Source of the DNA: Bacteroidia bacterium
GTDB taxonomy: Bacteria; Bacteroidota; Bacteroidia; J057
Length of the DNA stretch: 64,000 bases
Assembly (NCBI GenBank): GCA_022760475.1
Contig: JALEFZ010000088.1
Coordinates: forward strand, 186,001 to 250,000
Direction: 5' to 3'
Numbering within the stretch: position 1 is the stretch's first letter; the number at the start of each line of letters is the position of its first letter. The position numbers were made by a program, and so were the translations under genes. Below are positions 5,116 to 6,915 of the stretch, in pieces. Under the pieces are notes generated by a model. It worked only from the letters and a program-made list of their open reading frames with translations, was not told the DNA's origin and did no database searches.

Positions 5116-5406
5116 ATGAAAAAAAATAGGATTAAAGATCTTTCCATTGAGGAAATAGACCGAATTGTCGAAATGGCCTGGGAAGATCGGACCACTTTTG
5201 ACTCCATTAAGGCTCAGTTTGGACTGAGTGAAGGTGAAGTGATCAAATTGATGAGGAGAGAAATGAAACCCTCAAGTTGGCGGATGTGGCGTGCACGCGT
5301 CCAGGGGAGAAAAACCAAACATGCCCATCAAAGAGGCGAAGATGTAGACAGGTTCAGGTGTAGCCGTCAAAGACCAATCAATAACAACAAGATTTCAAAA
5401 CGTTGA
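5116..5406 (+). CDS. DUF2805 / TIGR03643 family small basic protein
   Basis: The product has 96 residues. The first 65 match a conserved small-protein family known from Bacteroidetes and some Proteobacteria: an N-terminal helix pair (LSIEEIDRIVEMAWEDRTTF), then IKAQFGLSEGEVIKLMRREM, which resembles a helix-turn-helix, then the signature PSSWRMWRARVQGRKTKH. The C-terminal 30 residues are basic and low in complexity. The HTH-like segment and high positive charge make nucleic-acid binding plausible, but this is inference and no function is established. It is a single gene with its own upstream region. Confidence 0.85.
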   Translation: MKKNRIKDLSIEEIDRIVEMAWEDRTTFDSIKAQFGLSEGEVIKLMRREMKPSSWRMWRARVQGRKTKHAHQRGEDVDRFRCSRQRPINNNKISKR

Positions 5407-5490
5407 GAGGGTAATAACTTGATAGCCTTCAAAAATGACAAGACTTGCATATTTCAAATTGTAAAGCTAGTTTTAAGAACTCATAAAAGA

Positions 5491-5562
5491 ATGCTACTTT
5501 CTTTGTTATATTCTGAATTTAATATACTGAATTTTGTGATAATTATTACTCCTGCCCGCTAA
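5491..5562 (+). CDS. Candidate ilvA leader peptide, 23 residues
   Basis: An ATG-initiated 23-codon frame reads MLLSLLYSEFNILNF-VIIIT-PAR and stops at TAA (5560-5562). It has five Leu, four Ile, one Val and one Thr codon; three consecutive Ile codons (5539-5547) preceded by Val and followed by Thr come just before the first hairpin, and the stop codon lies in that hairpin's loop. This is the arrangement of attenuation leader peptides of branched-chain amino acid operons, where stalling at scarce charged tRNA selects an antiterminator. It lies 81 bases upstream of ilvA, the committed enzyme for isoleucine. Translation is inferred from this architecture only; there is no strong ribosome binding site, which is usual in this phylum. 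Confidence 0.7.
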   Translation: MLLSLLYSEFNILNFVIIITPAR

Positions 5563-5637
5563 CCAGGCAGGAAAAGGATTCAGTGGACTCATAGATCATC
5601 GGCCTTTTCCATTATTGGGAAAGGCCGATTTACTTTT
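5551..5637 (+). promoter_or_regulatory. Transcription attenuator upstream of ilvA
   Basis: Three mutually exclusive pairings can be drawn. Hairpin 1:2 is CCTGCC (5551-5556) with GGCAGG (5566-5571). The antiterminator 2:3 is GGAAAAGG (5570-5577) with CCTTTTCC (5603-5610), eight perfect pairs. The terminator 3:4 is 5598-5610 with 5617-5629, 13 pairs with one G-U wobble and loop ATTATT, followed by a T-rich tract (TTACTTTTG). The antiterminator uses the whole CCTTTTCC part of the terminator's left arm and the last two bases of hairpin 1:2. A ribosome stalled on the Ile codons at 5539-5547 would cover the left arm of 1:2 and free the antiterminator, allowing ilvA expression when isoleucine is short. 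Confidence 0.72.
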
Positions 5638-5643
5638 GATGTT

Positions 5644-6915
5644 ATGCAAGATACCCGGACAGATAAAATTGTGGAAGTTTCTCTGGATAATGTTGTACAA
5701 GCTTCTAGAAAACTTCAAGATGTTGCTTTTCGGAGCCCACTCATGCGAGCCGATCTGCTCTCAGAACAGCTTGGTGCAGACATTTTCTGGAAAAGGGAAG
5801 ACTTACAGCAGGTCAGGTCCTACAAAATCAGAGGGGCTTACAATAAAATTACTTCTTTGTCTGAATCAGAACTCCAAAATGGAGTGGTTTGTGCCAGTGC
5901 CGGGAATCATGCCCAAGGAGTTGCTTATTCCTGTTCGCAGAAGGGGGTCAAAGGAGTCATTTTTATGCCTCATCCTACTCCCAATCAAAAAATCGAACAA
6001 GTTAGGATGTTTGGCGGGGATTATGTAGAGATTCGTTTGGAAGGAGACTCCTTTGACGATGCTTCTCTGGCTGCAAGGACTTACTGCGAAGCGAATCATA
6101 TGACCTTCGTACATCCCTTCGATGACATGAAGGTAATCGAAGGGCAGGCAACAATCGGGCTTGAAATCCTCGATCAGGTCAAAGAAGGACTGGATTATCT
6201 TTTTTTACCTGTAGGTGGGGGAGGACTTGCAGCAGGAGTCTCATCCATGGTAAAGAAGTTGTCGCCTGAAACAACAATCATCGGTGTTGAACCTGAAGGC
6301 GCGCCTTCCATGTCTGAAGCCCTCCGCCTGGGTTACAACCTGCAATTGCACAGCATTGATAAGTTTGTGGATGGAGCAGCTGTAAGGCAGGTAGGAGAAC
6401 TCAATTTTGCCATTTGCAAGCAATTCCTAGATCGTATGGTGAGGGTGCCAGAAGGGAAGATCTGCCAAACCATCCTACAGTTATACAATAGAAATGCCAT
6501 CGTAGTAGAACCAGCAGGGGCATTGACCACAGCAGCCCTGGATTATTTTGCAGATGAAATCAGAGGTAAAAAGGTCGTGGCCTTGATCAGTGGCAGCAAC
6601 AATGATATCGGGAGGACGGAAGAAATTCGGGAGCGTGCGCTGATTCATACGGGTAAAAAGCATTACTTTGTCGTTCGCTTTCCTCAGCGAGCAGGGGCTT
6701 TGAGGGACTTTTTGACCCATGTACTAGGCCCTCAGGATGATATCACATTCTTTGAGTATAAAAAGAAACACAACAGGAACGAAGGTCCTGCTGTGGTCGG
6801 TCTTGAATTGGCCAGACCTGAGGATCTGCCTTTGTTGGTAAGGCGAATGAAGGAGCTCAACTTTTTCGGTGAGTACCTCAATGACAAGCCTGACTTTTTC
6901 CAGTATATACTTTAA
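5644..6915 (+). CDS. ilvA: Threonine ammonia-lyase (threonine dehydratase)
   Basis: The 423-residue fold-type II PLP enzyme deaminates threonine to 2-oxobutanoate, the first step of isoleucine synthesis, in the cytoplasm. The PLP lysine lies in SYKIRGAYNKI (about residue 61), the phosphate loop partners are SAGNHAQG and the glycine loop VGGGGLAAG. The C-terminal part (about 335-423, starting HYFVVRFPQRAGALRDFL) is a single ACT-like regulatory domain, so the protein is the short form rather than the about 514-residue two-ACT E. coli form. A single regulatory domain still usually allows isoleucine feedback. The ATG at 5644 follows the attenuator's T-rich tract by 6 bases. Other ilv genes are not adjacent; the gene is alone here and converges on the YciO-type gene. 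Confidence 0.95.
   Translation: MQDTRTDKIVEVSLDNVVQASRKLQDVAFRSPLMRADLLSEQLGADIFWKREDLQQVRSYKIRGAYNKITSLSESELQNGVVCASAGNHAQGVAYSCSQKGVKGVIFMPHPTPNQKIEQVRMFGGDYVEIRLEGDSFDDASLAARTYCEANHMTFVHPFDDMKVIEGQATIGLEILDQVKEGLDYLFLPVGGGGLAAGVSSMVKKLSPETTIIGVEPEGAPSMSEALRLGYNLQLHSIDKFVDGAAVRQVGELNFAICKQFLDRMVRVPEGKICQTILQLYNRNAIVVEPAGALTTAALDYFADEIRGKKVVALISGSNNDIGRTEEIRERALIHTGKKHYFVVRFPQRAGALRDFLTHVLGPQDDITFFEYKKKHNRNEGPAVVGLELARPEDLPLLVRRMKELNFFGEYLNDKPDFFQYIL

Follow-up and report, generated by a model that had tools for sequence, protein, structure and literature searches.

Introduction

Ribosome-mediated attenuation is a classical form of gene control. In the enteric ilvL-ilvGMEDA, trpL, and hisL systems, a short leader open reading frame with tandem control codons is followed by mutually exclusive antiterminator and terminator structures and a U-rich tail before the first gene. 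The stretch of DNA analyzed here (the window; 64 kb, G000:C49:186001-250000) comes from a 6.86-Mb Bacteroidota genome and carries a solitary ilvA gene preceded by a short Ile-rich frame and a hairpin, which raises the question of what controls this gene and to which amino acids it responds. The initial annotation proposed enteric-type leader-peptide logic at the lone ilvA, a proposal now supported by folding of the RNA at successive ribosome positions, by the behavior of the thrL leader in the same model, by the ilv leaders of relatives, and by trp and his leader peptides elsewhere in this genome. In the reading favored here, the locus is very probably a ribosome-mediated (leader-peptide) transcription attenuator that acts on a monocistronic ilvA, includes a protector of the kind found in the three-hairpin model, and is predicted to be selective for isoleucine (and threonine).

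Architecture of the ilvA Leader

The ilvA gene (5644-6915, plus strand) encodes a threonine ammonia-lyase and is monocistronic; its product scores far over cut-off against NF006390 (599 bits) and TIGR02079 (588 bits). It stands alone, as first described; a TIGR03643 gene ends upstream at 5406, and a convergent gene of the tsaC/Sua5 type (threonylcarbamoyladenylate synthase) lies downstream. Between 5407 and 5643, a leader frame, a protector, an antiterminator, and a terminator follow one another on the plus strand ahead of ilvA. The leader frame (5491-5562, with ATG at 5491 and TAA at 5560-5562) has 23 codons and encodes MLLSLLYSEFNILNFVIIITPAR. The three consecutive Ile codons between Val and Thr noted at the outset are present: Val16 (5536-5538) lies directly ahead of Ile17-19 (5539-5547), which are followed by Thr20 (5548-5550), the control codons Ile-Ile-Ile-Thr (ATA ATT ATT ACT) thus spanning 5539-5550. 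The peptide also has four Leu codons after the start, plus Leu13 and Val16.

The protector is composed of two helices. Stem 1, the anti-antiterminator, is a 7-bp helix at 5550-5556/5566-5572 (-10.7 kcal/mol, P 0.97 without a ribosome). The initial annotation had recognized this stem and placed it at 5551-5571, coordinates that were right within one base and are corrected here; it had missed the outer helix of 11 bp (5525-5535/5575-5585), which encloses stem 1 in both the minimum free energy structure and the partition function. The leader frame ends inside this first hairpin, as claimed, with its stop codon (5560-5562) in the loop of stem 1. Jointly, the outer helix and stem 1 cover both ends of the antiterminator strand 5570-5577. 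The antiterminator pairs GGAAAAGG with CCTTTTCC (5570-5577/5603-5610) in eight Watson-Crick pairs, the number given initially. The intrinsic terminator (5598-5611/5616-5629; element 5598-5639) has 14 pairs, one of them G-U, and a stability of -23.1 kcal/mol; its tail, TTTACTTTTG, is T-rich with an interrupted T tract, and the ATG of ilvA follows 14 nt past the terminator, at the distance originally reported. The antiterminator and terminator are mutually exclusive, and folding returns protector, antiterminator, and terminator as alternatives, in keeping with the three exclusive stem-loops first proposed.

A candidate promoter, TTG-N20-TAGTTTTA (5445-5475, plus strand), has one mismatch to the Bacteroidota -33/-7 pattern TTG..TAnnTTTG. 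It is a weak candidate, since each strand of the 64 kb contains 9-10 matches this good. It is overlapped by a CATATTT box (5448-5454) that resembles a box upstream of the ilv leaders of several relatives.

The Arrangement Is Rare by Chance

The 166-nt region has a folding z-score of -5.6. The arrangement was captured in an automatic search pattern consisting of an Ile/Leu/Val-rich frame, a stop before a terminator, and a near-stop strand pairing with the left arm of that terminator. None of 20,000 dinucleotide shuffles of 5407-5643 combined a terminator of at least 10 bp, an antiterminator of at least 8 bp, and an ILV-rich leader, settings that are still looser than the observed values; at much looser settings, 22 of 4,000 shuffles matched. 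A background scan of 464 kb of the same contig on both strands (928 kb) gave nine matches at loose settings, and a terminator of at least 12 bp with an antiterminator of at least 8 bp and an ILV-rich leader was found only at the window site.

These frequencies bear on a simpler account, in which the hairpin mainly affects how the mRNA is translated or how stable it is (or serves as a constitutive terminator or insulator) and the Ile-rich frame is incidental. With just 14 nt between them, the hairpin could overshadow the start of ilvA; the terminator is much more stable than the antiterminator; and AT-rich DNA readily yields ATA and ATT, with Leu, Ile, and Phe codons common there. However, the conjunction of an ILV-rich frame, a stop in the loop of the protector, and an exact 8-bp helix competing with the terminator did not arise in any of the 20,000 shuffles, the layout recurs ahead of the ilv operons of relatives with both helices covarying (see below), and a constitutive terminator immediately upstream of a biosynthetic gene makes little sense. 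This simpler account is improbable.

Ribosome Position and the Choice of Structure

The nascent RNA was folded with a ribosome masking it as far as 16 nt downstream of the first base of the P-site codon. When no ribosome is present, the two protector helices (outer helix and stem 1, together -21.5 kcal/mol) have P 0.97 and the antiterminator has P 0.01. With Leu2-Ser8 in the A site, the antiterminator has P 0, and stalls at Leu2-Leu6 leave the protector closed. A stall at Val16 frees the antiterminator partially (P 0.5), and stalls at Ile17, Ile18, Ile19, and Thr20 raise it to P 0.98-1.0. When the ribosome sits at the stop codon, the antiterminator falls to P 0.14 with the 16-nt footprint. Selectivity for codons 17 or 18 onward persists across footprints of 13-18 nt, with Val16 joining at 18 nt; the stop-codon state varies with the footprint, and at 13 nt a parked ribosome would free the antiterminator. 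The E. coli thrL leader, taken as a control in the same model, gave P 1.0 at most Thr and Ile codons, declining over the last of them to 0.03 at the stop, which indicates that the folding method recognizes a known attenuator. As folding of the window leader switches fully only at codons 17-20, the device is predicted to sense isoleucine first and threonine second; the former is the product of the pathway opened by IlvA, and the latter its substrate.

The antiterminator (8 bp, about -8 to -10 kcal/mol) is far weaker than the terminator (14 bp, -23.1 kcal/mol), and at equilibrium the terminator is favored in every ribosome state once its 3' arm has emerged. Antitermination must therefore be kinetic. 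The terminator bases that are not shared with the antiterminator form its foot, the last part to emerge, an arrangement that would fit a kinetic delay.

The proposed mechanism builds on the frame and its codons, the exclusive helices and their dependence on ribosome position, and the covarying leaders of relatives; it supposes a leader that is both transcribed and translated, and an efficient termination that limitation for isoleucine or threonine relieves. Transcription would start shortly before 5491. When charged Ile- and Thr-tRNA are plentiful, the ribosome would reach the stop at 5560 and either cover 5570-5577 or release it into the protector, and the terminator at 5598-5629 would halt RNA polymerase 14 nt ahead of ilvA. 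A shortage of charged tRNA-Ile (or tRNA-Thr) would make the ribosome stall at codons 17-20 and open the protector; 5570-5577 could then pair with 5603-5610, the terminator would be delayed, and ilvA would be transcribed. Under this scheme, ilvA is probably read only when isoleucine is scarce.

Leaders of Similar Build Precede ilv Operons of Bacteroidia

Among the sampled genomes, that of the window is alone in its genus, and 13 belong to its family. In nearly all sampled Bacteroidia (37 ilvA loci), ilvA follows ilvC or ilvE. The initial annotation had looked to conservation of the leader ahead of ilvA in related genomes; this expectation was not borne out, a window-type leader being present in none of the 37 Bacteroidia ilvA upstream regions scanned. 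Lone copies of ilvA in relatives (G091, G294, G270 behind a HIT-family gene, and possibly G031) are without a leader.

Leaders are instead placed ahead of other branched-chain genes. Within the family, they precede ilvE in G001 (MKKLQVIINLIVGVVVSDHEQ), G003 (MQTLQIIIIRILLVVLLVPSE), G006 (MSMKLRIYQIIFRLLGVNVFPVTIR), and G009 (MPLSIGIEVVLLEGLIVVNHPGEKA), and ilvD in G002 (MLLWVINNVIIVLVGLIPHP) and G005 (MKILQSILSIIINVVSIILRN). In other Bacteroidia, they are found ahead of ilvD (G068; G070, Aquimarina; G072, Ancylomarina; G141; G344; G383), ilvB (G127 and G189), and ilvE (G402). In the Aquimarina sp. (G070; L116 ~900-1250), a tandem pair of complete Ile/Val leader attenuators lies ahead of ilvD; their peptides are MNKTKQNSINVINIEVIISS and MNLKNAIIINVISIIEVIISP, and both attenuators have an antiterminator and a terminator of their own.

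Covariation was assessed in 14 leaders of relatives, with the window excluded; this set was used in place of a MAFFT alignment of nine leaders without the window, in which the 3' arm was misaligned. In the 14 leaders, the antiterminator and the terminator are each 89% paired. The covariation of the antiterminator is 0.236, versus at most 0.105 with slid partners, and that of the terminator 0.320, versus at most 0.136; one column common to both helices varies in step with both partners. Covariation of both helices indicates that the architecture is under selection in Bacteroidia. A covariance model of the 14 leaders places its best window site at 5570-5632 (21.3 bits, E 0.047), the next scoring 14.5 bits. 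Genome-wide, the same model finds 19 sites above 24.9 bits that outscore the window site, and the ten best of these sites resemble ordinary terminators. The model was therefore rejected as a genome-wide detector, as it mostly returns ordinary terminators.

The window leader and the ilv leaders of relatives have similar antiterminator and terminator sequences (a GGCC-WTTCTC core, with GGCC-WTTC in the terminator), a distance of ~30 nt from stop to terminator, and the same repeat logic of segments 2, 3, and 4. They differ in what they precede: ilvE, ilvD, or ilvB operons in the relatives, and a solitary ilvA in the window. The case for common descent of the window leader with the ilv-operon leaders is suggestive only.

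The same leaders bear on the nature of the signal. Metabolite- or tRNA-sensing riboswitches, T-boxes, and protein-binding leaders also act through a terminator that has an alternative fold, and any of these could govern the terminator here in place of a translating ribosome. Against this, neither the window nor nine loci with related leaders gave an Rfam match, there is scant space for an aptamer beside the open reading frame, and what relatives keep is the Ile/Leu/Val codons and the helices, not a complex fold. Control of this kind is scarcely credible here, and a riboswitch or T-box identity was rejected for want of an Rfam match.

A more serious alternative concerns how the leader-peptide attenuator operates. 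Without a ribosome, the antiterminator of the relatives' leaders forms with P 0.43-1.0 in 13 of 15, the exceptions being G001 (0.06) and G199 (0.26). In the folding model, most of these leaders are induced by a stall at almost any codon, and they terminate only when a ribosome has reached the end of the frame. The window leader may act likewise, with antitermination as the default, induction by any Ile, Leu, or Val stall, and an unimportant protector; most relatives and the E. coli thrL control do so in the same model, and the window peptide has its four early Leu codons, Leu13, and Val16. In the window, however, the protector (P 0.97 without a ribosome) holds the antiterminator at P 0.01, and it stays closed during stalls at Leu2-Leu6. 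Default antitermination is accordingly unlikely. The window leader is the one with a strong protector, default termination, and a response limited to codons 17 onward, whereas most relatives are without a strong protector.

The Branched-Chain Pathway and Other Leaders of the Genome

The genome of the window has a leuACDB-ilvDBNC operon without ilvA, and no leader is visible ahead of this operon. IlvA groups with Flavobacteriales, outside its own family (99/97 support for the set in the tree), and IlvD (G000:C77, L101) groups with Chryseobacterium, also outside its own family (quick tree, SH-aLRT 99). As the two proteins group with different flavobacterial lineages, the branched-chain pathway has seemingly been rebuilt by horizontal transfer. 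One tentative and rather doubtful scenario is that, in this rebuilt pathway, the solitary ilvA acquired an attenuator of the family's ilv-operon type together with a protector, by which a default-on sensor of Ile, Leu, or Val became a default-off sensor of Ile and Thr.

Leader peptides appear to be a habit of this genome, since trpE and hisG also have them. The trpE leader, MNNVRVNTAWWWLANSDS (WWW), is followed by a strong 13-bp terminator (G000:C44 18914-20284, minus strand; L176), and hisG is preceded by the His-rich leader MKKTFLHIPSFPCLISAGHHSHTHHHSS (..HHSHTHHHSS). No Thr leader was found at thrA in the family. The hisG leaders of the family (L073-L078) end in ..HHSS and a stop, or in a closely similar sequence, and a conserved hairpin, ATTCCTCC-loop-GGAGGAAT, contains their last codons and the stop. 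The arms of this hairpin resemble an SD/anti-SD pair, in a phylum where SD sequences are hardly used, and in most of L073-L078 a TATATCACCC-like stretch comes after it. The hisG upstream regions of L073-L078 showed no clear antiterminator/terminator pair, and the logic of the his leader may therefore differ from classical attenuation.

Asn-rich leader peptides, for example MKTNFNNNFYFNPKN, MKSLKNNFFNYNSNNNIRAERLFY, and ..FFSNNFFLNNSNNNNLF.., precede asnA (L221, L230, L234/L181, and L235). They occur in 4 of the 21 Bacteroidia genomes with asnA above the family cut-off (G093, G219, G304, and G340); several have an antiterminator/terminator pair, and two genomes have tandem copies. The sequences point to an apparent asparagine-codon attenuation of asnA, and no paper on an asnA leader peptide was found. 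Outside the phylum, a Deltaproteobacteria/Myxococcota MAG (L024 2785-2955) has an ilvA without adjacent ilv genes that is preceded by the leader MSNHKFHNIMVNGIIISGASPGRHPIVD, which contains three Ile codons. Just upstream of this ilvA lies a 14-bp terminator that ends in a long T tail; the antiterminator is weak in the folding model.

Comparison with Known Attenuators

In direct comparison, E. coli thrL-thrABC and the window share a leader frame with tandem codons, an exclusive antiterminator and terminator, and a U-rich tail. In contrast to the enteric attenuators, the window device precedes the single gene ilvA, is predicted to be Ile/Thr-selective in place of a multivalent response to Ile, Val, and Leu, and resides in a Bacteroidota host.

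Within the phylum, leader-peptide attenuation of amino acid operons was proposed from a transcriptome map of Flavobacterium psychrophilum (2021; PMC9723704). That paper names no ilv leader, the terms "ilv" and "isoleucine" being absent from its main text (PMC9723704), and no report of an ilvA-specific leader was found in the open-access literature. The Bacteroid-trp motif (RF01692), a cis-regulatory motif of the same phylum, was described in 2010 from comparative genomics (PMC2864571); no Rfam family, this one included, matches the window above its gathering score.

The protector has its counterpart in Corynebacterium glutamicum, where a three-hairpin attenuator of ilvBNC is supported by mutations (PMC11857589). 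Both ilvBNC and the window combine a terminator, an antiterminator, and an anti-antiterminator at branched-chain amino acid genes (PMC11857589). They differ in phylum and gene, and the C. glutamicum device was tested experimentally, whereas that of the window is known from sequence and folding.

The window adds a clean, testable case of attenuation in a phylum largely without Shine-Dalgarno initiation, in which such regulation is hardly documented, and the collected leaders show such attenuators recurring ahead of ilv operons across Bacteroidia. Comparison of the leaders suggests that how broadly they respond to amino acids (any of Ile, Leu, and Val, or Ile and Thr only) is governed by whether a protector stem is present, and that this breadth may be retuned once a gene leaves its operon. 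The central prediction is that ilvA responds to isoleucine and threonine and not to leucine. Leader-peptide attenuation in Bacteroidota has already been published; what would be new is its target, a lone ilvA, and the protector that is predicted to narrow the switch to isoleucine and threonine.
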